Source of the DNA: Desulfovibrio sp. MES5
GTDB taxonomy: Bacteria > Desulfobacterota > Desulfovibrionia > Desulfovibrionales > Desulfovibrionaceae
NCBI RefSeq assembly: GCF_002237645.1
Contig: NZ_MJUZ01000022.1
Location: 1-64,000 of the forward strand
Reading direction: 5' to 3'
DNA length: 64,000 bases
A program made the position numbers and the translations under genes. Of the stretch, positions 3,481-46,291 are shown one piece after another; within the stretch, counting starts at the first letter, position 1, and every line of letters begins with the position of its first letter. Below the pieces are notes generated by a model. It was not told the origin of the DNA and did not search any database. It was given only the letters and a program-made list of their open reading frames with translations.

Positions 3481-3492
3481 CAGTATATCCGT

Positions 3493-4485
3493 CTAAATTT
3501 GTTTGGCTTTGGAGGAGGAAGGCAGCAGAACAGGCAGGACCGTCGCCAGAACAACCATCAGACCAACGGTGCCACCAAAAGCGGCCAGCGCGTCCAGCGT
3601 GAGGAGGTCGGCAAAAGCTTCACGCGCGGGATACAGCGACGCATTGCGCCCGAATATTTCGCCCATATGAATGATCTTCCACAACAGCAATGTGGCGGAA
3701 AACAGCGCAAACGAGCCTCTGGTCGCAAGGCGGGCCAGACTGCCGCTGCCGAGCAGCAGCGTGCAGAGGGCCAGCAGGGCCGACAGAGTCTCCGGCGCAT
3801 GCCACCACATATCCACAAAGGCGGCATACCCCTGCGGAGCGCGCACCAACAGGGCCAGCACTGCGCACAGCAATTGCAACATCAGGCACACGCTCCCAAG
3901 CTTCAGTATTGGTACAGTGTGACTGCCCCCGCGATCAAAGTCATCAAAACGCAGACGCAGCCAGATCAGCAGGACCAGGCCGCTGGCAGCTGCAAGCCCG
4001 GCAGCAGTCAGCACCACCGACGACCAGTATCCGACCCAGAGAACCCGGCCCACACAGGCCCGGACTTCGCCCGTGGCATAGGCCATGGCCAAAATGCCCA
4101 GGGCTGCCGCAGCAAGGGCCACGGCACGATTGACGGTCTGTTCCCTGCCGCTCTGCCAGAGCAACGTCAGAACGCACACAAGGCACAGGGGCAGAATATA
4201 GGCCCCCCAGGCGGTCCAGGAGCTGAATGAAGGATGTGCGGCAAATTCCCACACGCGCAAGGGCTGTTCAAGCGGCACAAATACGCCCATAAGCCCGCAG
4301 GCCAGAGAAATGCAGCTTGCCAGAGCCAGCACATGCACCATAAAGGGCTTTGCCCGGCGCAGAGCGGCCAGCCCCGCACCAAAAGCACTCACGCCGCCTG
4401 CAAGAATCATGGTCAGAGCCAGAGGTTCCCACGCGCCCCACTCCGGCCTGTTGACAAAGGGCACAAGGTCAAGAATGTCGTGCAT
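3493..4485 (-). CDS. ttrC: Tetrathionate reductase membrane subunit TtrC
   Basis: This NrfD/PsrC-type integral membrane quinol-oxidising subunit anchors the TtrAB complex and passes electrons from menaquinol to TtrB. The frame is open further upstream, but that extension overlaps ttrB. The chosen ATG at 4485 lies one base after the ttrB stop, with GAGAGGACG upstream as ribosome binding site, and gives 330 residues. Nine or so hydrophobic segments are visible, for example PLALTMILAGGVSAFGAGLA near the start and GLMVVLATVLPVLL near the end. The NRPEWGAWEPLAL opening is typical of TtrC/NrfD proteins. The position between ttrB and ttrA matches the ttrBCA order of Salmonella. Confidence 0.92.
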   Translation of the reverse strand: MHDILDLVPFVNRPEWGAWEPLALTMILAGGVSAFGAGLAALRRAKPFMVHVLALASCISLACGLMGVFVPLEQPLRVWEFAAHPSFSSWTAWGAYILPLCLVCVLTLLWQSGREQTVNRAVALAAAALGILAMAYATGEVRACVGRVLWVGYWSSVVLTAAGLAAASGLVLLIWLRLRFDDFDRGGSHTVPILKLGSVCLMLQLLCAVLALLVRAPQGYAAFVDMWWHAPETLSALLALCTLLLGSGSLARLATRGSFALFSATLLLWKIIHMGEIFGRNASLYPAREAFADLLTLDALAAFGGTVGLMVVLATVLPVLLPSSSKAKQI

Positions 4486-33170: not shown

Positions 33171-34814
33171 CTAGAAAGTATAGTGGAAGTTGAGCCCGAC
33201 CTTAAAGATATTCGGATTATCAGGCCGCTGTGCCCACTGCCGTCCATAGCTTTTTCCGTTGGGCGCAGTGTAACTCCATGTATCTTTGTCAAAATCAACA
33301 TAGAGATATGAAGTTTCCAAAACCAACTTGAGGTTTTGGTAGATCTTGTACTCGGTATCAAGGTTTACTTCCATCGCCCAGTCGTTGGTTGTCAGATACG
33401 AACCAATGGCGCCAGTTGGAGAAATACCGTCCACGTCCAAACCAAGGCGGTACTGCGATTCAGCGATCTTCTTGGGCATTTCGGCAGAGTTTGTTCCACG
33501 CATGTAAAGAATCTTTAAGCTGTTTTTCAGATCTTTGATAAACGAGATGTCAGTAACTTGCAGCGCCACGCCCCATAATCCAAGGGGCTGATAGGCAAAC
33601 AATCCGTCGTATGCGCCAGAGGCCAACGTTCCCTTAAAGCCGGTATGCGTATATTCCCAGTTGCCAGAAATGGCTGGCATGCGTTCAGAACCGTTTTTCA
33701 GGTTGTCGTCGTCGCCAGAGCTGTACCAGCCAAAAACGCCGGGCTTGCCCCAATCAAGGACATATTCGGCGAGCACGCTGGCAAACCAGCCCTTGCGGTC
33801 ATATCTACTGGCGTCCAATCCGCCATAACTTGCGGGAAGTTTTTTTACGTCCCCGTTATCTTTCATGTAGTTAAGACTTTGCGCAGAACCGTTGCCAAGT
33901 TTACTGCCATACATAAAGTCAAACGCTATAAGAATCGGGTCAAGCTTGGTAAGTTTTGCAGAAAGCCCACCCCACCAGGAGTAGGTTTCCCCGCCGCCAT
34001 ACTCCTGCAGCATGGGCGCCTTGCCCGTTCCGGTGTAAACCCCCATGCCTTCCTGAAATTTTTTGCGCGACGTGCTGACGAAATACTCATCATAGTCTTT
34101 GCTCGGGTTGCGTGCCACGCCGTCGCCCATGGCCAGCATGCCAGCCCACGGGGTCAACCGCAGTCCATCAAATTTCATGGGCAGCAGTAAGCCGAAAAAG
34201 TCCATCGCGTCATTATCCGGCTCGTCACGATTATAGGTATTTCCGTTAAGATATTTGGTAAATTTGGCGTCTGCCACAAGCGGGTTGTCGTTCAGCAACC
34301 GTGCCCACAAGGCAGTAATGGCCAGGTTTTCATTAATCGGCTTGGACGCAACAATGCCTGCCGCATCGTCATCAAGCACAAAGTTGCCGCCAGAGGCGAA
34401 AAGAGGGAGCGACATGCCTTGAATGCCCATGCGCACCTTGAAATCCGTATGGGGCATGACCCAGTCAAGATACGCACGCTTCAGTTCGACAATTGAACCA
34501 TCCGCGCCCAATGCCCCGCCATTGGGAAGGCCCTTCTTTGATGCCAGGCCGTAATAAATATCGCCAATTTCAAAATAAACCGTGCCGGACAAAGCCTCTG
34601 AGGCAATCGCCTCCAGTTGCAGACGAATACGGGCGCCTGCCGAGAACTGATCATCATTGGCTGCACCGGCGTTTGTGTTGGCAAATTTGTTATTTGTGGC
34701 AACTTCGAATGAATAGCTCCAATAGCCCTTTGCTTTAAAATCGACGGCGTAGGTGCTGCTTACCCCCCCCAAGAGTAAGGCCGCACTTAACAATAGTGTC
34801 GTCAGTCGTTTCAT
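33171..34814 (-). CDS. Outer membrane homotrimeric-type porin
   Basis: A signal peptide (MKRLTTLLLSAALLLGGVSS, cut after TYA) is followed by a 16-strand-barrel-like sequence rich in alternating aromatic and polar residues, ending in NIFKVGLNFHYTF with the C-terminal Phe typical of outer-membrane barrels. The 547 residues and DFKAKGYWSYSFE opening match the Desulfovibrio homotrimeric porin family. It would let small, probably anionic or neutral, solutes into the periplasm. AAAGGAGGAG stands just before the ATG. It is divergent from the lysR gene, which may control it. Confidence 0.88.
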   Translation of the reverse strand: MKRLTTLLLSAALLLGGVSSTYAVDFKAKGYWSYSFEVATNNKFANTNAGAANDDQFSAGARIRLQLEAIASEALSGTVYFEIGDIYYGLASKKGLPNGGALGADGSIVELKRAYLDWVMPHTDFKVRMGIQGMSLPLFASGGNFVLDDDAAGIVASKPINENLAITALWARLLNDNPLVADAKFTKYLNGNTYNRDEPDNDAMDFFGLLLPMKFDGLRLTPWAGMLAMGDGVARNPSKDYDEYFVSTSRKKFQEGMGVYTGTGKAPMLQEYGGGETYSWWGGLSAKLTKLDPILIAFDFMYGSKLGNGSAQSLNYMKDNGDVKKLPASYGGLDASRYDRKGWFASVLAEYVLDWGKPGVFGWYSSGDDDNLKNGSERMPAISGNWEYTHTGFKGTLASGAYDGLFAYQPLGLWGVALQVTDISFIKDLKNSLKILYMRGTNSAEMPKKIAESQYRLGLDVDGISPTGAIGSYLTTNDWAMEVNLDTEYKIYQNLKLVLETSYLYVDFDKDTWSYTAPNGKSYGRQWAQRPDNPNIFKVGLNFHYTF

Positions 34815-35139: not shown

Positions 35140-36066
35140 ATGAATATCGACCATCTGAAATCTTTTCATCGTGTAGCCCTTACGGGCAACTTCAGCCAGG
35201 CGGCTCGCGATCTGTTTTTGACCCAGCCAGCTGTCAGTATGCAGGTGCAGAGTCTGGAGCACTCCCTTGGCGCAGCGCTTTTTGATAGGTCACGACGCAA
35301 GGTCTGCCTGACAAGCGAGGGCAAGGTTCTTTTTGAATACACCCAAAAAATTTTCGGAATTGTTGAACAGATACAAGATGAGTTTTTACGCCTGAGCGCA
35401 TTGGATTCGGGCAGGCTTGTGCTTGGGGCGTCAGCCATAATGAGCGCGTATTACCTGCCGACATATCTGGTGGCCTTTCATCAGCGCTATCCCCGGGTGT
35501 CCATTGACCTTGCCGTGCATAATTCGCACGTCATTGCAGAAAAGGTATACAAAAACGAATTCGAAATTGGCTTCTGCGGGTCATCGCCAGCGCACCCCAG
35601 CCTGCGCAGCCAGTTTTTGCATCGGGAACCGCTTATCGTCGTCGCAGGCAACAAATCCGAACTGTCAAAACATAAATCTGCCATAACGGCTAACGAACTG
35701 GCTGGATATCCTTTTATCTTGCGTGAGAAAGGCACGAGGGTCACCAATAAAGTGCGTGACTGGTTCAAGGCCAATGCCAAGAATACAGAGCAAGTGCCAT
35801 TTATGACTGTAGATAATATGGAAGTAGCCAAGCAGCTCGTGATTAATGGAATGGGTGTTACGGCTTTGCCGCGATATGCTGCAACGCTTGAGCTGTCATC
35901 CGGACTTTTACGGCAGGTGCAGCTTGAAAATTTTGACCTTCATGTAGACTACTCGCTTGTCTACCTTGAGGGACAGAGGCTCAGCCGCACCACAGAACGT
36001 TTTCTTGCCCTGCTGTTCGAGCTGGGTGTCCCCTTGCCGGACGACATCCTGTCGCGCCTCAAGTAA
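35140..36066 (+). CDS. LysR-family transcriptional regulator
   Basis: An N-terminal winged helix (residues 1-60: FHRVALTGNFSQAARDLFLT, QPAVSMQVQSLEHSLGAALF) precedes a substrate-binding domain (about 90-300) with GRLVLGASAIMSAYYLPTYL and LVINGMGVTALPRYAA. The 308-residue length is standard, and the sequence is closest in style to CysB/CbbR-type regulators. The inducer is unknown. Divergence from the porin gene points to that gene as a target. Confidence 0.92.
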   Translation: MNIDHLKSFHRVALTGNFSQAARDLFLTQPAVSMQVQSLEHSLGAALFDRSRRKVCLTSEGKVLFEYTQKIFGIVEQIQDEFLRLSALDSGRLVLGASAIMSAYYLPTYLVAFHQRYPRVSIDLAVHNSHVIAEKVYKNEFEIGFCGSSPAHPSLRSQFLHREPLIVVAGNKSELSKHKSAITANELAGYPFILREKGTRVTNKVRDWFKANAKNTEQVPFMTVDNMEVAKQLVINGMGVTALPRYAATLELSSGLLRQVQLENFDLHVDYSLVYLEGQRLSRTTERFLALLFELGVPLPDDILSRLK

Positions 36067-36242: not shown

Positions 36243-38282
36243 TTATACAGAAACGCCGTTCTTCATTTGCACTATGAGCCCCTGCAGAATATCAGTCTGC
36301 GCTGCAAGATCCTTTACAGATTCTGCCGAGAGACGCATTGCATCAAACGTTTCCGCAGCGATACGGTTTACGCCTGTGAGAGATCTATTAATCTCTTCGC
36401 TTGTTTGGGATTGTTGTTCGGCCGCGGCAGCGATGGCATGCACCTGGCTTGCCGTTGATTCCACCAGGGCGACTATCCCCCCCAGGGCTTCGCCCGATAC
36501 GCTGGCCAACTGCGTTGCTTTGCCAATGATATTATAAACATGCTCCGCGTGCTCCACGTTTCGACGCGTCCCGCTGCGGATGCCGTCTATGGCCTGTCCC
36601 ACTTGCAAGGTGGCCGCCATAGTTTTTTCTGCCAACTTGCGAACTTCGTCTGCCACCACAGCAAAACCACGCCCAACGTCCCCTGCGCGTGCAGCCTCAA
36701 TGGCCGCATTGAGCGCGAGCAGGTTGGTTTGATCCGCGATATCGCTGATAACTCCAAGTATTTCGCCCGTGCTCTCGGCCTGGCTACCCAGCGCGGCCAT
36801 GTCCGTGCGCAAGTCCAGGGCCCGCTGTTGCGCCACACCTATGCCCTGCACCACCTCTTTTACCGCATGCTCGCCTTCCAGAGCCTGAGTTTTGGCATCT
36901 TCAGCCGCTTCGGCCGCCTGGGCGGCGCTTCGTGCGACCTCTAAAACGGTTATATTCATTTCTTCCATCGCCGTAGCCGTTTCAGATGCCCGAACAGTCT
37001 GCTCCTGCGCGCCATTGCTGGACAGCTTTACCTGCTTGGAAATGTCGCAGGACGCGCCAGTAACGCTGGCAACAATTTCTTCCAGACACGATGCAGCCTG
37101 CAGCATGCCCTCAGCCCGCGCAGATTCTGCTTTTTTGCGGGCATCGTTCGCCTCGGCCATGGCTTCTACAGCTTTTGCAGATTCTTGTTTGGCGAGTTTT
37201 GAATTTTCATCCGCCTCGGATATTTTTTCTTTAAGATTTGCCACCATGCATTTGAGGCTTGCGGCAAGCTTGCCTATTTCATTACCCAGGCTCAGATCAA
37301 GGTTCAAATCCAACTGCCCTTCCGCTACTGCCGAGGCATACGATTCCAATCGAAAAAGAGGCCGAACGACAATTCTGTCAACTGCAAAAAGGCTGATGCC
37401 GGTGAGTATGACCATTACAGAAAGTGCGAGACCAGCCAGAATGTTACGCATCTGGAGGGCAGGCTTTTCAATTTCTTCCATATCCCTGCTAAAAACCACA
37501 GTCCAGTTCCAACCGGGAACACGAGCCCACGCAAGCATTATTTCATTTGCCTGCTCAATGATTGTTGTTCCAACCTTTTCGTTCAGTATTTGCTTTACCC
37601 ATGGCTTGTCGCTCATATCACGCATCAGCTGGCCTTCATCCTTGTGGCCGATAATCAGCCCCTTGGGAGAAAGAATAAATGGATGACCACTTTTGCCGAT
37701 GCCGACATTTTTGATGTAGTCAGTTACCAGCCTGTCGATGTCGTAAGACAGGCAAACGCCGCCAAGCACGATGCCCTCGTCACTCCTGACAGGAACAGCA
37801 ACACTGACGATAAGCTTTTGTGTTGATGCGCTTTTTGCAGGAGCGTCGCTGAAGCCGTCATGCCCTGCCAGCGCGTCCCGTATGTAGGGGCGATCTCCCC
37901 GGTCCTTCAGCTCTCCTGACTGGCCGTGGGCAAAGGTAAGACGCTGTTTGCCATTATGATCAAACACATAGATGGCGTTTATTTCAGGCCCCGCTTTGGA
38001 CATGGCCGCAACGGTTTTTTTCACCGCAGCTTCATTTTGCCCATCCGCAAGGTATTCCAGCAATAGGGGCGTCTGGGCAACTGCATGCACCAAAAGGCTT
38101 TGCTGTTGCGCAAAATTTGCAAGAGATTTGACAATGGTTTCCGTCATCATTGTCATTTCTCGCTGACTGGACTCTATATTGGAATCATAGCTTATTTTTG
38201 TAATCACCATTGCAAATGCCGACAGCATGGCAAAAACAATAACTGCCAATAGCAACAGAATGGTAGCCCTGATGCTTCGCAT
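36243..38282 (-). CDS. Methyl-accepting chemotaxis protein with periplasmic Cache domain
   Basis: The ATG at 38282 gives 679 residues; an upstream extension lacks a signal. A first membrane span (about 6-28) is followed by a dCache-like periplasmic domain (about 40-280) with [29 protein letters not shown] and [19 protein letters not shown]. Next come a second span near 290-310, HAMP, and a signalling domain with the hairpin tip [20 protein letters not shown] and [20 protein letters not shown]. It would couple an external small-molecule signal to CheA/CheW, which are not in the window. The ligand is unknown, but organic or inorganic anions fit the neighbours. Confidence 0.93.
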
Positions 38283-38449
38283 AAACACTTTGCCCCTTGC
38301 AGCTATAGTTGATGGGCAACCGAAGAATAAAAATAAACGGGGCGTATCAGGGCGCAAGAGTAGACTCAAGGTCAGTGTCAACCTTGTTGGCGGATGCCCC
38401 GGAAAAGCGCCAAGGAGCTATTCCGGGGCAATGGCCGTGGCTGAGAAAC

Positions 38450-39202
38450 CTAGTCGCCTATGTTACGCGCCTGGGGAGAAAAAAATACGTACGGGTTGCC
38501 GTTGGGATCCAGCTTGGGCTTGTCGGCCTCGCTGACATGAGACCTTTCATACAACAACGCGGCGTCGCCAATCTTTCGGATTGCGTCAGGCTTTTCCTGA
38601 ACGCCGCCACTGCTCAGCAAGGGATTTCCGGCCTTGTCCTTGCCGCTGCTGGACACAAACCATGTTTGAAGAATCTGCAGTACGCCGGGGAACTGGTCAT
38701 CAAGACCCTTGAGACTGTGGATTTTTTCAAAAGGCGAACCAACGGCGGCAAGCACAATCTTGCTGTTCACGCTGCCGTGTTCGTTGAAATTCAGCACGCC
38801 CAGAGGGCGCGCCTTGATCACGGCGCCGCGGGGAACAGCACTTCCAAGCACAATTGCGCTCAGGGGGTTGCCGTTGCCGCCGAATTCTTTGGCCAGCATC
38901 GTACGGGGAATAAAGCCATAGTTTCCAGGATAGGGCAGATACTGCAGATACTTGGGATTGCCCTGCTGCTGCTCAAGAGCCATAAGGCCGCTCTTCTGAT
39001 CCACGCTGTATTGCCCGGTGGTTCCTGCCGGCATTTCCACAATCACATTTACGGTTCCGTCCAAATTGTGGGTAGGGTACTCGGTAATAAAATTCTTTTC
39101 ACCCTTAAGTACCAACTGCTGCGTCTGCACGCCTGTTCCACCCAGAGCGATTACTGGAAAAACCATGATGCTCAGGAACATAAGAAAAATATATTTCTTC
39201 AT
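38450..39202 (-). CDS. Exported family I inorganic pyrophosphatase-fold protein lacking catalytic aspartates
   Basis: The ATG at 39202 has AGGAG nine bases upstream and opens a signal peptide (KYIFLMFLSIMVFPVIALGG). The 250-residue protein aligns with E. coli pyrophosphatase through VNVIVEMPAG, LPYPGNYGFIPRT, GNPLSAIVLG and VIKARPLGVL. The active-site positions are changed: D65, D67 and D70 become N110, N112 and S115; D97 becomes E141; D102 becomes N146; K29 and E31 become Gln and Ser. The E20, Tyr51/Tyr55 and K104 equivalents remain. It is therefore probably a binding or structural protein in the periplasm rather than a normal pyrophosphatase. It ends the minus-strand block. Confidence 0.8.
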   Translation of the reverse strand: MKKYIFLMFLSIMVFPVIALGGTGVQTQQLVLKGEKNFITEYPTHNLDGTVNVIVEMPAGTTGQYSVDQKSGLMALEQQQGNPKYLQYLPYPGNYGFIPRTMLAKEFGGNGNPLSAIVLGSAVPRGAVIKARPLGVLNFNEHGSVNSKIVLAAVGSPFEKIHSLKGLDDQFPGVLQILQTWFVSSSGKDKAGNPLLSSGGVQEKPDAIRKIGDAALLYERSHVSEADKPKLDPNGNPYVFFSPQARNIGD

Positions 39203-39326
39203 GTAGTTGCTCTCCTGAAGATGCGCTGTTGTGGCGCGCCCCTGCTGCAAAGCCGTCAGAGGGCAGCGCACGCCCGATTAAAAACGGACGGTGTGACATC
39301 AAACCCAGGTTGATGCCCCCTGACTT

Positions 39327-40166
39327 CTACGATGGGTCATCATTGTAAGCCGCTTTTTCAGGCTTTTGCGTGGCCTTTTTTTCCACAGGGGCATCAGGCT
39401 TGGGCGTACTTTGCTGCAGTTCTCCTTCATGTACATCATCCAGAGAAAGGTGCTTGTAGGGAGGGGTAGTGAACTTGGGAAAACTGCCGCCAGGCGTCAG
39501 CAATATATGAGCGTTTTTCTTGCTTCCCTCATCCTCGTACTTCATTTCGGGGCTTTGCCGCAGCGCCTTGCTCACATAATCAGGTGCATAACCAAGCAGA
39601 TATACCGCAGACGGGCACCAGGGTTGCCCCCCCGGATCCGTCACGCCCTGAATGAGAATAAAGGCGTTGAGAAGCTGCTCTGGCGTACGGTCAATGTTGC
39701 GCTTCGAATAGCGACCAGACTTGTTGTTTACCAGCCAGCAGTGGTTTTTATTGTCATTGATGACTTCGCCGCTAATTCTCCCGGGCCCGCCGGCGGTTCC
39801 CGAAACATGCCCGTAGTTTTCGGTGGTTCCGGGCTTGCGCTTGGACTTGTCTTCAGGTCTGAAAAACCCCTGGGGGTAGGTGCGTCCGAATGGGTGGGGC
39901 GCTTCCTCGATAAATGCGACGCTGCCTTCAGACGTGACCACATAGTTGTAAATGGGACGCTTGGGATCGAGAACTGCCGGAAAATCCTTGGTTCCGACCT
40001 GCAGATATGGATTCAGCATAACGTTGCCTTTTTTATCGGCCTCGTAATGCTTTATATATGACGGACGATTGGCGACGCCATACAGGGCATCAAGATTACT
40101 GTCTGCCTGAGCCATCACAGGCATCAAGAAAACCGTTCCAATGATACTCAAAAAAAACTTTTTCAT
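39327..40166 (-). CDS. Exported protein of unknown function
   Basis: A clear signal peptide (MKKFFLSIIGTVFLMPVMAQA) is followed by a soluble 258-residue protein. No family was recognised. Visible landmarks are NHCWLVNNKSGRYSKRNIDR followed by TPEQLLNAF, a pair of cysteines (in HCW and WCPSAVY), PGGSFPKFTTPPY and a Pro/Lys-rich tail. It lies 21 bases after the exported CYTH-like gene and 124 before the pyrophosphatase-fold gene, so it probably acts with them. Confidence 0.7.
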   Translation of the reverse strand: MKKFFLSIIGTVFLMPVMAQADSNLDALYGVANRPSYIKHYEADKKGNVMLNPYLQVGTKDFPAVLDPKRPIYNYVVTSEGSVAFIEEAPHPFGRTYPQGFFRPEDKSKRKPGTTENYGHVSGTAGGPGRISGEVINDNKNHCWLVNNKSGRYSKRNIDRTPEQLLNAFILIQGVTDPGGQPWCPSAVYLLGYAPDYVSKALRQSPEMKYEDEGSKKNAHILLTPGGSFPKFTTPPYKHLSLDDVHEGELQQSTPKPDAPVEKKATQKPEKAAYNDDPS

Positions 40167-40187
40167 AGCTGTGCTCCCAGATGGATA

Positions 40188-41120
40188 TTACAAAGGCTGG
40201 TTAAGCAACATGCGAACCTTGGAGCCGTTCCAACGCCAAGCATTTTGTACGCCCAGGGAGTCTCCAAGCTTTTTGTAAAGCGCCAGCGTGAGCTTTTCAC
40301 CAGCCTTGTGGGCCACCGCCTGTTGGGAAAAGTCGCCATCATAGCCAAACGAAAAGTCATACACAAAAGGAGCGCCGCCTTCCGTACGCGACCATGCCTC
40401 CACAGAAACAGCCAGGGGTTGTTCCAGTCCGTCCAGTTTGATGAAGCCAGGGCGGCATCGCACGCCAAAAGCGGGGATGGCCTGGAGCTTGGTATCAGCA
40501 GGAAGGCCCAGCTTGAGCAGTTCCGGCACGTATGCGCCAAACTCCGCCAGGTTCATCTCTCCGAGCTCCGCACGACCCAGATTAAAATTGACGCCCTTTT
40601 CAACGTAGCCTGAAAGCTGACCGTCCTTGCCGATGCACACGTTGTCCTCGGCGGAAGCCTTGCCCGCAACGCCCTTGGTTTCCAGCTTGGCCCCAAGTAC
40701 CTTGGTAAAGGTGCCATTTATGCTTTTAACGGCGATGCGCATGGGGCTGACAGGATAGCCATTCTTAAAGTTTGTCGTAACGCGGACCAGGTAACCCTTC
40801 TTCCACAGGTCCAACGAGGGCGTATCAAAAAATGTTTTTACGGTTGGGCTGAGTTCAAAGGGCTTTTTTTCCCTTTCTGTCATGGTTATGCCCATTTCTG
40901 CGGCAACACTTTTGGCTTTCGCCCAAATATCTTTAAAAGCCGCACTCATGTCAGGGTTTGTTTTGGCAGGATCAATCAGAATCTTGTATTCTCTGCCAGT
41001 GATTTCTTTGGTCTGCCCTTTCCAAACAGACTGGTTTTGCTGGTAAAGGTCGGCAGCTGCCGTTGGGATTCCGCTGGCCAGCCCGTATACCAGAATCAAG
41101 GCCACAAAAATTTTGCGCAT
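40188..41120 (-). CDS. Exported CYTH-like protein (minus-strand block)
   Basis: A perfect AGGAGG site precedes the ATG at 41120. A signal peptide (RKIFVALILVYGLASGIP, cut near TAAA) leads a 310-residue protein. It has a CYTH/triphosphate-tunnel core: GREYKILID near the N-terminus (where ExExK is expected; the first Glu is Gly), then KTFFDTPSLDLWKKGYLVRV and MRIAVKS. It is a diverged paralogue of the exported protein encoded at 44217-45137. CYTH proteins bind triphosphates with Mg2+ or Mn2+. An extracellular triphosphate or polyphosphate substrate is inferred. Confidence 0.7.
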   Translation of the reverse strand: MRKIFVALILVYGLASGIPTAAADLYQQNQSVWKGQTKEITGREYKILIDPAKTNPDMSAAFKDIWAKAKSVAAEMGITMTEREKKPFELSPTVKTFFDTPSLDLWKKGYLVRVTTNFKNGYPVSPMRIAVKSINGTFTKVLGAKLETKGVAGKASAEDNVCIGKDGQLSGYVEKGVNFNLGRAELGEMNLAEFGAYVPELLKLGLPADTKLQAIPAFGVRCRPGFIKLDGLEQPLAVSVEAWSRTEGGAPFVYDFSFGYDGDFSQQAVAHKAGEKLTLALYKKLGDSLGVQNAWRWNGSKVRMLLNQPL

Positions 41121-41189
41121 GAAAACCTCCTGACGGTTTGGTCGCAACGCGGAACAGTGCGACTCACATATTGTACAACATTACCATTA

Positions 41190-42752
41190 TCACCAAAGTT
41201 TGCTGTTAAATCCCATCAGCGGCATCACATACTGTGTCCACAATATCAGCATGATCAGGCAGGCGCCCATTTGAATAATGCCGAATTTAAATGATTCCCA
41301 GCTGCTGTATTGATTTGTCAGGTAGCTGATATTGGCGGGTTTTGAATTGAAATACAGGACATAGACCTGGTTTATAAGAAACGCCATTGGCAGGCAGAAT
41401 CCGATGACATCCCAATTGTAATTTTTTGCCACAGAAATAATAATTGGGAACAGCACAATCGTTCTGGCCGTTTTGCTCTCGCTGATAAGGGTCGTTAAGG
41501 CAAAGAGCGCTGCCAGTATGGCAAAGACGCTGACTTTGGGCATTGACGCCGCGTTCCAAGAATCAAGCGAATAATGCATCCACAGCCCTACGATGTCGGT
41601 CTTGTCCACCAGCCCGCCCAGCACATAGGCTCCCCAGCTGAACATAAGCATGTGCCACGGTATGTCGGCGTCATTCCACTTGATAACGCCTATGGCGGGC
41701 AGCTTGCAGACAGAGGGCATAAGTACTGTTATGGCGCCCATAAGCGCCACAACCTCGGCGCGAATACCGTGATACCGGTCTGTGGCCCAAAGAACGAGAA
41801 CACACAGAAAAACAATGCCCGCGCGCAGTTCCTTGGCCGTAAGCGGCCCCAGCTTTGACAGCTCCTGCTGCAAGCGTTCGTGCCCGCCTTCAAGTTTTGG
41901 CGAGGCGTCTTCCTTGCGGATGGGAAAAATCCAGCGAGTGCCAGAGTACCAGGAAAAGGCGCATTGAATGATGGCCAGGGGCAGCAAGGCCATAAGCCAG
42001 TCGCTGTAATAAACCTTGTAGCCGGCGTTTTCCAAAAGCTGGGCTGCCAGCAAATTTGCCGCAGACCCCGTGATAAAAGCCGATGCAGAAACATTGTTGG
42101 CCAAAAGATTCTGCAAGACCATGTTCTTGCCGACGTTGTTGCGGCTTTCGCTTCCTGTTGAGCCATACATGGCAGATATAACCATGAACAAAGGCAGCAA
42201 AAGGGCGGTTTTTGCCGAGGTAGCGCTGACAAAAGCGCCAAGAAGAATATTTATTGCGATGAAGCATGCCAGAATATAGGTAACGTTTTTTCCCATGGCC
42301 AAGACAAGATAAAGGCATATCCTTTTGGCCAGGCCCGTAACCATGAGTGCGCTTGCCATGATAAAGCTGGCGATGTTCAGCACCATTACGGGTTCGCCAA
42401 GAATGGCGAAGGTCGGGCGCATATTCATGATGCCCGTCATTATTGTTGCAACAATAATAAGAAATGAAGTAAGATAATTAGGAATAGCCTCAGTAAGCCA
42501 CAGTATCAGCGATGAGGCGAATATTCCAAGAGCCGCATAACAGTGCTCTGCAGGAACTTTTGATTGTGATTCAAAAACCTCGATTGGGCCGCACCATTGC
42601 AAATAAAAATATAAAAATAAAAAAATACCCAGCGGCAAACCAATAAACTTGACTCTGTCCATCCAAACGCTGCCCTTGATATCTGGCAGCTTTTCAAGGG
42701 AATAATTGCTGACATCCAGTGGATCAAAAGGTTGGGTTTTTGCCTGGGACAT
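41190..42752 (-). CDS. DASS/SLC13-family anion transporter
   Basis: The 520-residue protein has about twelve membrane spans and the features of sodium/dicarboxylate-sulfate (DASS) carriers: LILWLTEAIPNYLTSFLII, the first hairpin with VSASAFITGSAANLLAAQLL, and the second hairpin ALTTLISESKTARTIVLFPI. Substrates in this family are dicarboxylates, tricarboxylates, sulfate or phosphate-like anions. The gene stands between cytoplasmic and exported CYTH-like genes in one co-directional block, so an anion made or bound by those proteins is the likely cargo. Confidence 0.88.
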   Translation of the reverse strand: MSQAKTQPFDPLDVSNYSLEKLPDIKGSVWMDRVKFIGLPLGIFLFLYFYLQWCGPIEVFESQSKVPAEHCYAALGIFASSLILWLTEAIPNYLTSFLIIVATIMTGIMNMRPTFAILGEPVMVLNIASFIMASALMVTGLAKRICLYLVLAMGKNVTYILACFIAINILLGAFVSATSAKTALLLPLFMVISAMYGSTGSESRNNVGKNMVLQNLLANNVSASAFITGSAANLLAAQLLENAGYKVYYSDWLMALLPLAIIQCAFSWYSGTRWIFPIRKEDASPKLEGGHERLQQELSKLGPLTAKELRAGIVFLCVLVLWATDRYHGIRAEVVALMGAITVLMPSVCKLPAIGVIKWNDADIPWHMLMFSWGAYVLGGLVDKTDIVGLWMHYSLDSWNAASMPKVSVFAILAALFALTTLISESKTARTIVLFPIIISVAKNYNWDVIGFCLPMAFLINQVYVLYFNSKPANISYLTNQYSSWESFKFGIIQMGACLIMLILWTQYVMPLMGFNSKLW

Positions 42753-42856
42753 GGTGTCTCCTTATGGGCGCTTTCCAAAAAGTGTTTTCTCTTTTCAGAA
42801 AGCGCCCGACGCTCAATCAAATGGGTATAGTTTGGCAAGCGTTCTGCTTATGAGCT

Positions 42857-43495
42857 CTACTCCATCCCAACCACACGGCGAGCGGCCTTGAGATAATTGG
42901 TGTTCGGCATGCTGGATATCCCAAGCGCTTCAACAGCCTTTTTCATCCCTTCGTAGTTTTCACTTTCGCAGCAGGCGGATTCGACCAGTGCGCCATTAAA
43001 CCACACCTGAGCGTATTCGCAGATGATGCCTTCAACTGTGAACCCGTAGCGCATTTTTTCAACCTGAACAGGAACCATTTCGGGGTGACGACGCGCCATT
43101 TCAATAAATTCATCGATAGAATAGCTGTCTTTGTCCAGAGACATCTCTACCTTGAGGTGACCGATGATAGTGGCAAGGTCTTCCTTCGGAACCGGAAACT
43201 GAAACTTCCCGCGAGGCTGAAAGATTTCGTACCCTTCGGGGGTTTCGCCAACCTTGGTCTTGATATCAAGCAGGCCGTCACGAACCTTGACATTGGCCTC
43301 AGTTGTGCGCGCGGACAAAAAATACGTTTCAACAGGCATCTTGCGGGCCTTGTGCAGCACGGCGCCGCAATTCCACATACTGGCCTTTACCTTTTCAATA
43401 ACATCCGTCCCGAACACCCGAAATTCGGCACGGGGAATGATCTTTGCGGCTTCTTCTGCAGTTGTGGACACATTTTTGGCAAATACGTCGGCCAT
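42857..43495 (-). CDS. Cytoplasmic CYTH-like protein of unknown function
   Basis: The 212-residue protein has no signal peptide. RAEFRVFG near the N-terminus stands where CYTH proteins have ExExK. ETYFLSARTTEANVKVRDGL followed by LDIKTKVG, and VEKMRYGFTVEGIICEYAQV followed by FNGALVESACCES, follow the alternating strand pattern of the triphosphate tunnel fold. Key charged residues are only partly kept. It begins 18 bases after the canonical CYTH gene and probably shares its message. Confidence 0.6.
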   Translation of the reverse strand: MADVFAKNVSTTAEEAAKIIPRAEFRVFGTDVIEKVKASMWNCGAVLHKARKMPVETYFLSARTTEANVKVRDGLLDIKTKVGETPEGYEIFQPRGKFQFPVPKEDLATIIGHLKVEMSLDKDSYSIDEFIEMARRHPEMVPVQVEKMRYGFTVEGIICEYAQVWFNGALVESACCESENYEGMKKAVEALGISSMPNTNYLKAARRVVGME

Positions 43496-43513
43496 GAGAT
43501 GATCTCCTAGGGG

Positions 43514-43978
43514 TTACCAGCGGGTAAATGGGGTTTTGATGAGGTTGGAATTGAAGTAACGGGGGTCGCCAGTTACCTCCGCACCTATCCATGCGGGCTT
43601 GTCGAACTTTTGATCTTCGCTGGTCAGTTCAATCTCGGCTACAATAAGACCCTGGTTTTCGCCGAAAAATTCATCGATTTCCCAGGTAAACTCGCCCTGT
43701 TTGATCTTGTAACGCTTCTTTTCGATAAGAGGCTTTTCTGCAAGGTTGTCCAAAAGGGCGTTGCAGTCGTCAAACGGAATTTCATACTCGTATTCCGCCC
43801 GTGTAGCTCCAACGGTAATGCCCTTTATAGTCAAAAAGGCCTTTTCCCCTACCGTGCGAACGCGCACAGTGCGTTCCTTGGCGCTGTTGAGATACCCCTG
43901 CCGGTACATGGTTCCTTCAGCCAGCATGCGCCACGCATCGCCATTTATAAGGAACTTGCGTTCAATTTCTTTTCCCAT
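43514..43978 (-). CDS. CYTH-domain protein (triphosphate tunnel metalloenzyme)
   Basis: This compact 154-residue CYTH protein has the signature EIERKFLI (residues 4-11, ExExK), YRQGYLNSAKERTVRVRTVG, AFLTIKG, EYEYEIP, IEKKRYKI and WEIDEFFGENQGLIVAEIEL. It belongs to the short bacterial triphosphatase/NeuTTM-like group, which hydrolyses tripolyphosphate or nucleoside triphosphates with a divalent metal. It is cytoplasmic and is the first gene of the minus-strand block. AAGGAGGATTAA lies just before the ATG. Confidence 0.9.
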   Translation of the reverse strand: MGKEIERKFLINGDAWRMLAEGTMYRQGYLNSAKERTVRVRTVGEKAFLTIKGITVGATRAEYEYEIPFDDCNALLDNLAEKPLIEKKRYKIKQGEFTWEIDEFFGENQGLIVAEIELTSEDQKFDKPAWIGAEVTGDPRYFNSNLIKTPFTRW

Positions 43979-44216
43979 TTAATCCTCCTTGATTGGCCAT
44001 GGACTTGCCATGTGCTCTTGCAGAAACATATCCAAGCGGGCTTTTTGTGCCAAATCAGAAGTTCCTTTGCTGACAATAAGACCTGCTTATATATTACCTG
44101 AAGATGCAAATAATTTTCTATTATGAACATCATTCTTCATTTTTATTGTACTTCGCATTTTCGTCATAGTAATAAAAATTCAGGATAGCTATTACAGACA
44201 CTTATTTGGAGGAGTT
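43979..44216. promoter_or_regulatory. Divergent promoter region of the envelope pyrophosphate locus
   Basis: This 238-base AT-rich spacer lies between the leftward CYTH block and the rightward exported CYTH and pyrophosphatase genes, so it must hold both promoters. No box could be assigned with confidence. Confidence 0.45.
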
Positions 44217-45137
44217 ATGCGTAAGACCATTTTTTTTATGCTGTTGACCCTGGGCATGCTGTCAGTCGGCCTCCAGGCATCGGCCCAATCCCGTTATGAG
44301 GCCAATGTCGCCGCCTGGAAACCTTTTGGGGCTGTTGACAGCTTTGAATACAAGGTCGCGTTGAAACCAGAGTTGTTCCAGTCTGGCAAGGCACTGGCGT
44401 CATTTGCGACAATATGGGAAGCGCTGCAAAACCAGGCCAGTCAGAAGGGCTTTGCGCTCAAAGCGGGCAAAGGCAAAATACGCGAACGAACCAAAAGTTA
44501 CTTTGATACAGCCGATCTGACATTGAAAAAGGCCGGATTCATTATCCGGGTCAACGAAACGTACAAGGATGGCCGCCCCAACGATGAAGTGCGCTTTAGC
44601 GTTAAAGTGTCTGGCAAAAGCCCGGATTTCATTCTTGGCGCGCCGCTGAAATCCGCTATCGGCAGAGGCAAGGTCAGCACGGAAGACAACCCGTACGAAG
44701 CCGACGGCAAGATAATGAGCAGGCTTGAAAAATCGCTGGACATAAAGATTGACAGCGCAGCGCTTGGCAACCTTCGTAGCCCCACCCTGCAGCAGTTTTC
44801 ACGCATTGCGCCCATCCTGGAAAAAAGCGGTCTTTCTCCCTCGACGCAGCTGAAGCCGGTGGTGGCGTACAGTTATTCCGCGAAAATGGGCACTGTTAAT
44901 CTTGGCGGAGTTGATGCCGAGGTATCCCTGGAAGCGTGGACAAATGGCTGGAACGGGGAAACCCTGGTTCTGGAGTTGTCCTTGGGCGTCGAAGATCAGG
45001 ACTACTATGCAATTCCCAAAGTCGTGGCCGCTGGAGACGCTTTCTTTCAAGATGTCATGATCAAGGGGCTTTCAGACTTTCGACCAAAAGATGAAAAATT
45101 CAGCGGTTCCAAGCTGCTCTTGCTGCGCGGCCTTTAA
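44217..45137 (+). CDS. Exported CYTH-like protein (plus-strand block)
   Basis: A signal peptide (RKTIFFMLLTLGMLSVGLQA, cut near SAQS) opens a 306-residue protein. The CYTH-like core shows DSFEYKVALK (ExExK position with the first Glu replaced by Ser), KSYFDTADLTLKKAGFIIRV and EVRFSVKVSG. It also has AEVSLEAWTNGW, mirroring AVSVEAWSR in its paralogue encoded at 40188-41120. TTGGAGGAG stands just before the ATG. It is followed by the exported family II pyrophosphatase, which suggests that the two act in sequence on a triphosphate and its pyrophosphate product. Confidence 0.72.
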   Translation: MRKTIFFMLLTLGMLSVGLQASAQSRYEANVAAWKPFGAVDSFEYKVALKPELFQSGKALASFATIWEALQNQASQKGFALKAGKGKIRERTKSYFDTADLTLKKAGFIIRVNETYKDGRPNDEVRFSVKVSGKSPDFILGAPLKSAIGRGKVSTEDNPYEADGKIMSRLEKSLDIKIDSAALGNLRSPTLQQFSRIAPILEKSGLSPSTQLKPVVAYSYSAKMGTVNLGGVDAEVSLEAWTNGWNGETLVLELSLGVEDQDYYAIPKVVAAGDAFFQDVMIKGLSDFRPKDEKFSGSKLLLLRGL

Positions 45138-45259
45138 CCTTTAAGGAGGCAACAAGTCGTCACTGATGGGATGCGGTGTGGCTCAAAATTTCCACAGCGC
45201 AATTCGCCCTCAAAGTGCCTTGTCACCCATTTGCCCTCTAACCACACGAAGGTGCGTGT

Positions 45260-46291
45260 ATGCTTAACATTGCGGCAACATTAATCAAGAAAAGCTGCTG
45301 CGCTCTGATTGCAGCCATGTTGGCGGCAACCTTGTCAGCCGGGTACACGCTGGCAGCCCAATCGCCCGATCCCATCCTTGTATTCGGGCACAAAAACCCT
45401 GATACCGACAGCATTGTCGGCGCCATTGCGACGGCTCACCTGCTCAATGCCAGAGGAAAAACCGCAAAAGCCATGGCGCAAGGACAGGCAAACCCCGAAA
45501 CGCAGTTTGTGCTCAACAAATTCAACCTGCAAATGCCCGCCATACTTGGGCCTGTGGCTGGAAAAGAAGTCGCGCTTGTAGATTTTAACGATGCCGCCCA
45601 AGGGCCGGACGACCTCAAGGACGCCACGCTGGTGTTTATGGTAGACCATCACAAGCTCGGCGGCCTGAAAACATCTGCGCCGCTGGAGGCATGGCTGCTG
45701 CCGCTCGGGAGCAGCAATACGGCGTTATACGAGATGATGAAGTTCTATAATGTCGCGATTCCCAAAAACCTTGCCGGCGGCATGCTGTGCGCCATTCTTT
45801 CCGACACTCTTATGTACCAGTCCGTCACAACCACCGAGCGCGACAAGGCCGCAGGCGCAGCACTTGCAAAAATTGCCCAGGTAAAGGACCAAAAGGCTCT
45901 TGCTTACGACCTTTTCAAGGCAAAATCGGCTGTTGAAGGCGTATCCGCGCGTGATCTTGTATTGCGCGACTGCAAAAAGTTTGAAATGAGCGGTATGGGC
46001 GTTGGGGTTGGACAGATCGAGGTACTTTCCCTGAACATGCTGGACGGAAAAAAAGAAGGCCTCCTGGAAGCAATGCGCCAGATCAAGCAGGAGAGCAAAC
46101 TTCACAGCATCTTTCTTATGCTCACAGACATCAGCAAACAGGGAACGGAGATGCTGGCTATCTCCGATGATCCTTCATTGCCCGCGACCGCCTTTAAAGC
46201 AACATTTAAGGATTCGTCAGCATGGTTGCCCGGCGTAATGAGCCGCAAAAAGCAGGTTATCCCCGTATTGGAAAACATCCTGAAAAAATAG
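45260..46291 (+). CDS. ppaC: Exported family II (Mn/Co-dependent) inorganic pyrophosphatase
   Basis: This DHH-family enzyme hydrolyses pyrophosphate to phosphate. The family II motifs are present: GHKNPDTDS (H44, D48, D50), VDFND (D108, usually followed by His; here Phe), VDHH (D129, H130, H131), ILSDTLMYQS (D182) and SRKKQVIP near the end. The unusual feature is an N-terminal signal peptide (KKSCCALIAAMLAATLSAGY, then TLAAQ), since family II enzymes are normally cytoplasmic. The rest of the 343 residues match the family length. AAGGTG precedes the ATG, and a terminator follows at 46478. Confidence 0.9.
   Translation: MLNIAATLIKKSCCALIAAMLAATLSAGYTLAAQSPDPILVFGHKNPDTDSIVGAIATAHLLNARGKTAKAMAQGQANPETQFVLNKFNLQMPAILGPVAGKEVALVDFNDAAQGPDDLKDATLVFMVDHHKLGGLKTSAPLEAWLLPLGSSNTALYEMMKFYNVAIPKNLAGGMLCAILSDTLMYQSVTTTERDKAAGAALAKIAQVKDQKALAYDLFKAKSAVEGVSARDLVLRDCKKFEMSGMGVGVGQIEVLSLNMLDGKKEGLLEAMRQIKQESKLHSIFLMLTDISKQGTEMLAISDDPSLPATAFKATFKDSSAWLPGVMSRKKQVIPVLENILKK

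Follow-up and report, generated by a model that had tools for sequence, protein, structure and literature searches.

A gene system of TTM-fold proteins, pyrophosphatases and an exchangeable anion transporter that may serve the acquisition of extracellular pyrophosphate or tripolyphosphate

Parts of the gene system described here have counterparts among known systems. SPX-DASS phosphate transporters contain a DASS-type carrier, and in the yeast VTC polyphosphate polymerase a TTM fold that keeps one metal site is associated with inorganic polyphosphate. Bacterial phosphate import of the PiT-DUF47 type pairs its carrier with DUF47, which we take to be PitR, and secreted or periplasmic pyrophosphatases of families I and II have been described. 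CYTH triphosphatases are represented by the N. europaea enzyme NeuTTM, a specific tripolyphosphatase according to the accessible part of PMC3440374, and Haloferax volcanii grows on exogenous polyphosphate as phosphorus source according to the accessible part of PMC13318637, where a Mn/Co-dependent enzyme is reported as a protein band and its gene is not named.

The locus compared here with these systems belongs to Desulfovibrio sp. MES5 (assembly GCF_002237645.1, contig NZ_MJUZ01000022.1, positions 1–64,000, forward strand); this 64,000-nt stretch, the whole of the DNA analysed, is hereafter called the window. An initial annotation had recognised eight adjacent genes in a divergent arrangement at 38450–46291, and all eight open reading frames, here named A to H, were found at those positions, with 18–124 bp between the genes of each arm and 238 bp separating the two arms. 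The limits had been drawn too narrowly, leaving out the neighbouring genes for an outer membrane protein (OMP) and a LysR-type regulator. With a probability of about 0.52, we read A–H as one form of a portable system that would acquire extracellular pyrophosphate and/or tripolyphosphate, with H and F as its presumably competent hydrolases; the gene system itself, present in many unrelated bacteria, is apparently undescribed. It shares with VTC and SPX-DASS proteins the TTM fold, a retained metal site, the polyphosphate theme and the DASS-type carrier, but here these would be separate soluble proteins and exported hydrolases encoded in a bacterial operon, and no SPX domain was found among the Pfam matches of the window. 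Profile searches gave no Pfam or NCBIfam match above cut-off for B, C, E and G, and Sec-like N-termini, judged by hydrophobicity only, predict that A, B, C, G and H are exported.

Gene F (43514–43978, minus strand) is a canonical CYTH gene of the inorganic triphosphatase (NeuTTM) type, with a PF01928 match (5e-20) above the cut-off. Its product matched PDB entries 3typ and 2fbl over most of its length (E 2e-15 to 3e-15), the latter named NE1496, which is presumably NeuTTM. As in that enzyme, ExExK (E4-x-E6-x-K8) and the basic and acidic tunnel residues are kept, and they were invariant in 15 of 15 sequences. In contrast to the NeuTTM type, F is encoded together with E and an anion transporter in one conserved operon, and is accompanied by three proteins, E, C and G, which share its fold but apparently not the full metal sites, C and G being predicted to be exported. 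F was absent from all 10 spirochaete E loci, some of them on short contigs.

The hallmark of the system is gene E (42857–43495, minus strand), which encodes a cytoplasmic TTM-fold protein and was found in 45 loci from many phyla (61–84% identity in the 44 full-length loci), including Parasutterella and a mobilizable Citrobacter plasmid, where it belongs to a run of five genes. It is the constant, key element of the gene system. The predicted structure of E (pLDDT 93.8) has the TTM tunnel fold, and its comparison with mouse ThTPase (5a64) gave a Z of 12.9 and an rmsd of 3.8 over 176 residues; matches with Z >8.5 were either TTM/CYTH enzymes or hypothetical proteins, which we take to be of the same kind, and Mediator subunits came next. 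The ExExK motif is missing from E, whose strand 23–29, preceded by R22, bears E24 and R26 (RxExR), both invariant in 45/45 loci. No Pfam CYTH match was obtained for E in any of the 45 loci at E-values up to 1, and profile–profile comparison (hhalign) of E with F gave no match.

For gene C (40188–41120, minus strand) the fold was computed on a homologue, the C domain of a C–B fusion in locus L044 (38% identity to the window C), whose residues 52–321 were modelled mostly at pLDDT >90. Structure comparison with 6yp4 (Z 12.3, rmsd 3.7, 190 residues) indicates that C has, on the model of this homologue, the TTM fold, and by homology to C (30%, 4e-31) the same is predicted for its paralogue G (44217–45137, plus strand), which is also divergent from F in L012, L093 and L094. 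Strand 1 of both proteins departs from ExExK (GREYK in C, SFEYK in G). None of the 17 members of the C/G family showed a Pfam CYTH match at E-values up to 1, and a profile–profile comparison of C/G with F gave no match either, so the kinship of E, C and G to CYTH proteins is one of fold alone. In our hand alignment C and G have another residue in place of the second AEIE-strand glutamate (metal site 2). Of the three glutamates that form the second metal site of hydrolytic TTMs, two seem to be gone from E, C and G, which argues against a hydrolase role. By eye, a third C/G-type paralogue of the same genome (L011) is divergent from a gene for a 2HCT citrate-type carrier, and distant cytoplasmic C/G relatives adjoin chromate-type transporter genes in 5 of 8 loci, so such TTM proteins are not everywhere phosphate-linked. 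Gene B (39327–40166, minus strand) encodes a predicted exported protein with a C-terminal NDDPS motif. C–B fusions occur in three other genomes, in L044 (L117), L059 (L115) and, on another contig, L049 (L116), and B of L046 and L066 carries a different N-terminal domain that looks CYTH-like by eye.

The predicted exported pyrophosphatase-fold proteins A and H differ in the state of their active sites. H (45260–46291, plus strand) appears to be a complete family II (DHH-DHHA2), Mn-dependent pyrophosphatase, with PF01368 and PF02833, an NF003877 match above cut-off (1e-112), a match to 6ll7 covering the whole domain (1e-89), and HKNPDTDS, DHHK and SRKKQ, which we take to be the active-site motifs of the family. 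A second H-like copy elsewhere in the genome (55% identity) is without the N-terminal extension, which adds support for the export of H. H thus resembles secreted family I/II pyrophosphatases in being complete and in its signal-like N-terminus, but differs from them in its linkage to exported TTM proteins and an anion carrier; A is a degenerate family I homologue. Gene A (38450–39202, minus strand) has the family I profile (PF00719, 2e-20) and 62 matching PDB sequences at E <=1e-3, but in the window GNGNPLS replaces DGDxxD, and in the following loop E and N stand at the positions of D and D of the Helicobacter pylori enzyme. Presuming that DGDxxD and the two loop aspartates are the catalytic aspartates of family I, 4 of 5 positions are not acidic, and the active site of A is, judging from its residues, degraded in this genome; of the 12 aligned rows, the window row among them, 8 retain DGDxxD, as do L093, L094 and L116.

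Most of the families named in the initial annotation were thus borne out. Its four CYTH-like proteins are accounted for by F (PF01928), by the models of E and of the homologous C domain, which do fold as CYTH proteins in the structure prediction it had called for, and by G as a paralogue of C. Its unknown exported protein is B, which represents a new family with no Pfam match in 9/9 members, and its exported family II pyrophosphatase and DASS carrier correspond to H and D. For the exported family I protein A the fold was confirmed, with most catalytic aspartates lost in this genome. As E, C and G appear to retain only in part the metal sites that hydrolysis requires, several of the supposed enzymes may act by binding or sensing instead of cleavage.

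Gene D (41190–42752, minus strand) encodes a DASS/SLC13 anion transporter (PF00939, 6e-51); TIGR00785 matched at 1.8e-53 with 181.8 bits, under the model cut-off of 198.6. The first reference gene within 600 bp downstream of E (n=45) was DASS in 12 loci, DUF4010 in 11, SulP in 6, DUF47 in 5, TctC in 3 and C in 1, with another gene or none in 7, so that one of the first five followed in 37/45. The transporter beside E is therefore exchangeable (DASS, SulP, PiT, tripartite tricarboxylate, DUF4010), which does not single out one transported ion.

The co-conservation that the initial annotation had proposed to look for was found. Only one other genome, that of the Desulfovibrionaceae locus L093, has the whole set A–H in unchanged order together with OMP and LysR; L094 of the same family carries A–G without H, again with OMP and LysR. 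In loci of Holophagaceae, Rhodocyclales and Burkholderiales, C-B-A is found in the neighbourhood of E, F and DASS. B was present in 6 of 288 Desulfovibrionaceae genomes, all 6 among the 11 with E (Fisher 6e-10, shared descent ignored), and in 16 of 77 Holophagaceae genomes (the family of L057), all 16 among the 17 with E (Fisher 1e-15, shared descent ignored); among 32 other E genomes, 20 lack it. In 15 control stretches totalling 277,565 bases, several of them chosen for C/G relatives, no core family besides C/G was present. The gene linkage is real and not due to chance, the exported arm is an optional add-on, and the system extends beyond the window cluster. In 24 of 45 loci, A, H, a PPX1-type DHH protein, PiT or Porin_O_P, at least one of them, was found near E, Porin_O_P, PiT and DUF47 each being assigned from one representative; one spirochaete DHH protein matched the yeast exopolyphosphatase 2qb6 at 7e-38. 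Several E operons share the DUF47-PiT pair, and F-E-D-DUF47-PiT form a single run in L097, L098, L099 and L101. Unlike plain PiT-DUF47 import, the pair is here joined with E, F and D and, in spirochaetes, with a PPX1-type exopolyphosphatase, a combination that the accessible part of PMC13170248 does not mention for PitR.

The porin-like OMP (33171–34814, minus strand, 547 aa; porin by eye) is likely part of the system. A homologue adjoins LysR and the cluster in L093 (69%) and, split into two pieces of 67% and 59%, in L094; in L095 and L096 (36%) a homologue adjoins LysR-F-E-D. At E-values up to 1 the window OMP matched no Pfam family, PF07396 (Porin_O_P) included, whereas 10 of 45 other loci have a PF07396 porin close to gene E (1.5e-46 for L057). 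The LysR-type gene (35140–36066, plus strand; PF03466/PF00126) is likely the regulator of the cluster, with orthologues beside the set at 74–75% identity in L093/L094 and 51–53% in L095/L096; many E loci elsewhere also have LysR-type genes. In the window an MCP gene lies between LysR and A, which is not the case in the relatives. Between the arms, ATAAG-N5-CTTAT (44076–44090, plus strand), an operator candidate of the LysR-like T-N11-A type, is the sole match in the window at up to one mismatch (0.90 expected). Every exact copy found across all 129 loci stands in front of F (window copies, G534, G536, L069 and L071), with recurrences in other Desulfovibrionaceae and Parasutterella. In L012, L095, L096 and L124, 9 of 10 positions agree; the copy on the Citrobacter plasmid agrees at 9 of 10 positions.

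Porin_O_P, PiT, DUF47, PPX1-type exopolyphosphatases and pyrophosphatases beside E in other phyla point to inorganic phosphate polymers. We propose that an outer-membrane porin would admit the polyanion, which periplasmic C (with B) and G would bind; H would cleave pyrophosphate to phosphate, A may be a related binding or accessory protein, and D would import the resulting or leftover anion. In the cytoplasm F would hydrolyse tripolyphosphate, and E, whose tunnel is kept although its second metal site is apparently missing, would bind polyphosphate and then sense it, gate the carrier or hand the polyphosphate on, the LysR protein presumably switching both arms through the shared operator. The dedicated pathway for external pyrophosphate, tripolyphosphate or a nucleotide suggested by the initial annotation is thus favoured by co-conservation and phosphate-polymer neighbours, its nucleotide part being unsupported. 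Uptake of phosphate polymers is at odds with the SulP, tripartite tricarboxylate and DUF4010 genes beside E, which do not suggest phosphate, with the citrate-type neighbour of the third paralogue, the degraded A, the absence of F in spirochaetes, the E genomes without B and an OMP that is not a recognised phosphate porin. A stricter version, in which E binds tri- or polyphosphate and works directly with an exchangeable carrier (DASS, PiT, SulP, TctABC) importing pyro- or tripolyphosphate while the exported TTM-B proteins capture the polymer, strikes us as doubtful.

The alternative that survives best, although we think it unlikely, gives the TTM proteins E, C and G the role of sensors that do not hydrolyse: E would bind an internal triphosphate or polyphosphate signal whose level is set by F and gate or regulate the adjoining anion importer (DASS, PiT, SulP or TctABC), whose ion would depend on the host and need not be a phosphate polymer. 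Eukaryotic SPX domains sense and gate transporters comparably. Such a role would suit the constancy of E next to an exchangeable transporter across 45 loci, the F–E pairs without a transporter in L074 and L075, and the apparent loss from E, C and G of the second metal site, by which hydrolysis is catalysed; phosphate transporters that have a cognate accessory regulator are known (PMC13170248, accessible part). It leaves unexplained the exported pyrophosphatase H, the exported C and G and the nearby phosphate porins and exopolyphosphatases, and D carries three extra basic residues (K427, R430 and K471, invariant in 18/18 aligned rows) that suit a special substrate.

These residues align with G, H and G of 6wtw in the substrate region, and this difference also weighs against an improbable second alternative, that the imported substrate is an organic anion (a di- or tricarboxylate) or a metal or phosphate complex of it, with DASS, TctC and the citrate-type neighbours as its carriers and the pyrophosphatases just clearing released pyrophosphate. 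Several DASS carriers of solved structure are indeed named dicarboxylate or citrate transporters, TctC occurs in 7/45 E loci and the third paralogue faces a citrate-type carrier, but no recognised enzyme of organic-acid metabolism was found among the examined clusters recurring in at least 4 loci, while PiT, Porin_O_P and exopolyphosphatases do recur near E. A role of E, C or G as TTM polymerases of the Vtc4 kind, with polyphosphate made or stored at the envelope and the reaction pulled by the pyrophosphatases, is highly improbable in spite of the match of the C model to the yeast polymerase 3g3r (Z 9.0), as canonical triphosphatase-type folds match it better (Z 12.3), an exported polymerase is not expected to have ATP available beyond the membrane, and both importers and exopolyphosphatases are recurrent neighbours of E. 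The VTC family was absent from the Pfam matches of E and the C/G relatives.

E, B and C/G are three families with no Pfam or NCBIfam match above cut-off, although E is conserved across many phyla. If the acquisition of extracellular pyrophosphate or tripolyphosphate by this system is confirmed, it would provide a genetic handle on the old question of bacterial uptake of these compounds and growth on them, of which tripolyphosphate is a detergent and food additive, and TTM proteins would be seen to function extracellularly and in partnership with transporters. None of the 11 E genomes of Desulfovibrionaceae showed a membrane pyrophosphatase, which leaves no ground for claiming that imported pyrophosphate yields energy there; one was found in 13 of the 17 genomes searched among the 32 E genomes of other families. 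Should E and its carrier work as one module, phosphoanhydrides would be a dedicated bacterial nutrient and, where a membrane pyrophosphatase is present, possibly an energy source.

An ORF check found the eight reading frames that the initial annotation had claimed at 38450-46291, all at the positions given there. Genes A, B, C, D, E and F form a minus-strand arm, and G and H a divergent plus-strand arm; neighbours within each arm are 18-124 bp apart, and 238 bp separate the two arms. Family searches assigned A to the family I pyrophosphatase fold (PF00719, 2e-20) and identified D as a DASS carrier (PF00939, 6e-51), F as a CYTH protein (PF01928, 5e-20) and H as a family II pyrophosphatase (NF003877, 1e-112, exceeding the model cut-off); no family above cut-off was found in Pfam or NCBIfam for B, C, E or G. 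Sec-like signal sequences at the N-termini of A, B, C, G and H, recognised by hydrophobicity only, predict that these five proteins are exported. Another contig of the MES5 genome encodes a second family II pyrophosphatase that is 55% identical to H and lacks the N-terminal extension, and no PF00719 protein besides A was found in this genome. A methyl-accepting chemotaxis protein (MCP) gene occupies 36243-38381, between a LysR gene (35140-36066, plus strand) and A; in some Holophagaceae loci, too, E has MCP-like or Cache genes nearby, which may reflect chemotaxis toward the system's own substrate.

The structure of E was modelled on a 45-row E alignment with a mean pLDDT of 93.8, and its best solved neighbours were proteins of the triphosphate tunnel (TTM, or CYTH) fold, among them mouse thiamine triphosphatase (5a64; Z 12.9, rmsd 3.8, 176 residues) and E. 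coli ygiF with tripolyphosphate (Z 12.2), the top Foldseek row having a value of 2.4e-6. For C we used a homologue from locus L044 (record titled Rhodocyclales), in which C and B form a single 606-residue protein. Its C half was modelled confidently as a TTM fold (6yp4; Z 12.3, rmsd 3.7, 190 residues) that also matches AtTTM3 and ygiF, both with Z > 11; the B half was poorly predicted (pLDDT blocks of 31-81), and the fold lists obtained with this model concern the C half only. E and C/G were assigned to the TTM proteins by fold because sequence profiles alone gave no link to F: profile-profile comparison of E and of C/G with the canonical F yielded no signal (probability 0.5-0.7%). Among PDB sequences the E profile had no match and a mixed C/B profile chance matches only. 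The proposal of four CYTH-like proteins was therefore upheld for F by PF01928 and for E and a C homologue by the modelled fold, G being placed only through its homology to C (30% identity). As for B, none of 9 members matched Pfam and PDB matches stayed at chance level; a resemblance to XopV (NCBIfam, 0.009) fell far under the cut-off and was put down to chance or to a short motif in common. The B C-terminus carries an NDDPS motif, invariant in 9/9 aligned rows.

The ExExK motif of F and its basic and acidic tunnel residues are kept in 15/15 relatives. Two relatives of F have been solved, 3typ and 2fbl; the latter is NE1496, which we take to be NeuTTM. In PMC3440374, NeuTTM, the CYTH enzyme of Nitrosomonas europaea, is described as a specific tripolyphosphatase. 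The first strand reads RxExR in E (E24 and R26 invariant in 45/45), GREYK in C and SFEYK in G. By hand alignment, on the strand matching AEIE of F, the first glutamate is present in E (E172, invariant in 45/45) and in G and is an aspartate in C, and the second is gone from all three. According to PMC4641920, the water-activating metal is bound by three glutamates, Glu-2 and Glu-4 among them, hydrolysis falls strongly when Glu-2, Glu-4 or Glu-169 is mutated, and Vtc4, the polymerase of yeast, has the first metal site only. Since two of the three glutamates of this second site appear, when mapped by eye, to be missing from E, C and G, these proteins are predicted to bind triphosphate and hydrolyse it poorly. 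Regarding the pyrophosphatases, the match of H to 6ll7 spans 303 residues, motifs included. The A protein of the window has GNGNPLS at the position of DGDxxD, and in the next loop E and N replace two aspartates of the H. pylori enzyme, so that A of the MES5 genome is probably not an active pyrophosphatase. DGDxxD is present in 8 of the 12 aligned A rows (the window counted among the 12) and in three further homologues (L093, L094 and L116), and is lost too in L044, L046 and L066, the other three rows. The idea that A lost its active site once H had taken over is not supported, as L093 encodes H together with an intact A.

Linkage of these genes was also seen in other Desulfovibrionaceae. L093 reproduces the exact order of the window without the MCP gene, OMP-LysR-A-B-C-D-E-F|G-H (the outer-membrane protein gene, OMP, lying at 33171-34814 on the minus strand of the window), and L094 has the same order minus H. 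In L094 tblastn recovers the OMP homologue (1939-3539) in two pieces that overlap, which looks like a broken frame. L095 and L096 are arranged LysR-OMP|F-E-D, four loci of another Desulfovibrionaceae genus (L097, L098, L099 and L101) LysR|F-E-D-DUF47-PiT, and L100 contains no more than LysR, F, E and a D fragment. B was found in 6/288 Desulfovibrionaceae genomes, each of them one of the 11 that carry E (Fisher 6e-10, ignoring shared descent), and in 16/77 genomes of the family of L057, all 16 among the 17 with E (Fisher 1e-15, likewise ignoring shared descent). Conversely, of the 32 E genomes to which the named loci led (32 of 45 loci covered), only 12 contain B, and the exported arm is thus an add-on to an E core. 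Three genomes, those of L044, L059 and L049, encode a C-B fusion, which for L049 lies on a different contig; in L046 and L066 B has a different N-terminal domain, CYTH-like by eye.

Neighbourhoods were counted by tblastn labelling at 45 E loci, with flanks of up to 10 kb and many contigs shorter than that. Near E we found F in 28 loci and DASS in 29 (16 best matched by D, 13 by a second type), B in 13, C in 12, A in 12, an H-type pyrophosphatase in 3, PPX1-type DHH in 9, Porin_O_P in 10, DUF47 with PiT in 7, SulP in 6, TctC in 7, DUF4010 in 12 and a divergent second E-type gene in 8. The one spirochaete DHH protein tested matched yeast exopolyphosphatase 2qb6 at 7e-38. With the same references, core families other than C/G were found in 0 of 15 control stretches (277,565 bases), eight of which hold C/G relatives, the reason for their choice. 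Several further genes recur at these loci. The divergent E paralogue (L060:6513-7127, similar in 8/45 loci; 20-30% identity) directly precedes F in Holophagaceae clusters, E24 and R26 of E being common to six aligned paralogues. A protein of cluster c11, without a Pfam match and apparently exported, lies between DASS and E or DUF4010 at L067:9121-9963 and in 13 other loci, and a protein of ~480 aa with an apparent membrane segment directly follows D (L069:12265-13722, L124:11318-12778), recurring in Parasutterella, Cardiobacterium and a Citrobacter plasmid. In genome G003, L013 holds at its contig end (3771-4238 and 4571-5026) a second F-type CYTH gene and, in convergent orientation, the C-terminal portion of a G-type gene, a piece that may continue the G gene begun on the L012 contig.

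E served as the probe in named genomes, in a scan that sees only genomes matching two short peptide patterns. It returned 45 loci, 44 of them full-length and 61-84% identical, mostly from metagenome-assembled genomes, of which some record titles may be wrong; these titles name Desulfovibrio, Gemmatimonadetes, Holophagaceae and other Acidobacteria, Anaerolineales, Spirochaetes, Rhodocyclales, Burkholderiales, Parasutterella, Cardiobacterium and Alphaproteobacteria. Within Desulfovibrionaceae, E is present in 11/288 genomes. Two of 72,556 plasmid records gave a match to E, from Citrobacter (69.7%) and Cupriavidus (32.6%, in a stretch with no annotated features), and neither B nor C was found in plasmids. 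The mobilizable Citrobacter freundii plasmid carries LysR-F-E-D-hypothetical consecutively, with D 69% and E 70% identical to those of the window and E annotated as 'hypothetical protein'. The patchy distribution, the high identity and the plasmid copy suggest that the E system may have spread horizontally. C/G are rare, C being found in 3/149 genomes of the family and the C/G profile in 9/395 of the phylum; this profile has no stretch conserved enough for the named-genome scan, where E is the better probe and where C gave 21 pattern matches and 0 relatives.

Between the divergent arms lies a palindrome, ATAAG-N5-CTTAT (44076-44090), presumably a T-N11-A element of the LysR type. It is the sole match in the window at ≤1 mismatch, 0.90 being expected, and is not significant alone. 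It was retained as a candidate operator because, across all 129 loci, every exact copy precedes F: these are the window copies, one in G536, two in G534 and those of Parasutterella L069 and L071. In a mismatch scan of 24 F-bearing loci in which F heads a run, against a mononucleotide-shuffle background, the element was exact in four (L069, L071, L093, L094) and 9/10 in another four (L012, L095, L096 and the Citrobacter plasmid; an intergenic alignment was also made), and the best site was ≤8/10 in 16/24.

D carries K427, R430 and K471, invariant in 18/18 aligned rows of both DASS types, at positions read by eye as G, H, G in the 6wtw carrier and G, H, I in the plastid carrier 9mcr. This extra positive charge near the putative substrate region would fit a strongly anionic substrate, without proving it. 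In the working model, a porin-like protein would be the outer-membrane component, the exported triphosphate-binding proteins would act together with the active-looking pyrophosphatase, D, with its added positive charge, would import the anion, a tripolyphosphatase and the tunnel protein E would operate in the cytoplasm, and the LysR regulator would control the set. The simplest joint substrate of the cluster is inorganic pyro- or tripolyphosphate, to which we give a probability of about one half; 24/45 E loci contain one or more of A, H, PPX1, PiT and Porin_O_P. The transporter beside E is exchangeable, the first reference gene ≤600 bp downstream of E (n=45) being DASS in 12 loci, DUF4010 in 11, SulP in 6, DUF47 in 5, TctC in 3, C in 1 and other or none in 7. 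For this reason the strongest alternative, albeit a less likely one, is that E has a sensing or gating role for a range of anion importers. That the window organism gains energy from imported pyrophosphate through a membrane pyrophosphatase was rejected, PF03030 being found in 0/11 Desulfovibrionaceae E genomes; a membrane pyrophosphatase is present in 13 of the 17 non-Desulfovibrionaceae E genomes searched (17 out of 32).

C/G relatives also occur beside other carriers. In the MES5 genome, a third exported C/G-type paralogue, 48% identical to G (L011:9698-10693, C22:109698-110693), is transcribed divergently from a gene for a 2HCT citrate-type carrier, behind which lie citrate lyase-like genes (carrier and lyase both by-eye assignments). 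This arrangement suggests that exported TTM proteins are not confined to a single carrier. Cytoplasmic distant relatives of ~300 aa (L029, L030, L032, L033, L035) overlap or adjoin, by eye, chromate (CHR) transporter-like halves in 5/8 loci from other families of the same phylum.

Among the open-licence papers listed on CYTH/TTM proteins, pyrophosphatases and pyrophosphate or polyphosphate uptake, no title or abstract opening describes this gene set; a 2026 study of how Haloferax volcanii uses polyphosphate from outside the cell mentions an enzyme band in its abstract, without naming a gene there (PMC13318637). The cluster is a new, widespread and mobile combination of known folds, probably of the nutrient anion acquisition kind, and includes three protein families unrecognised by Pfam and NCBIfam.
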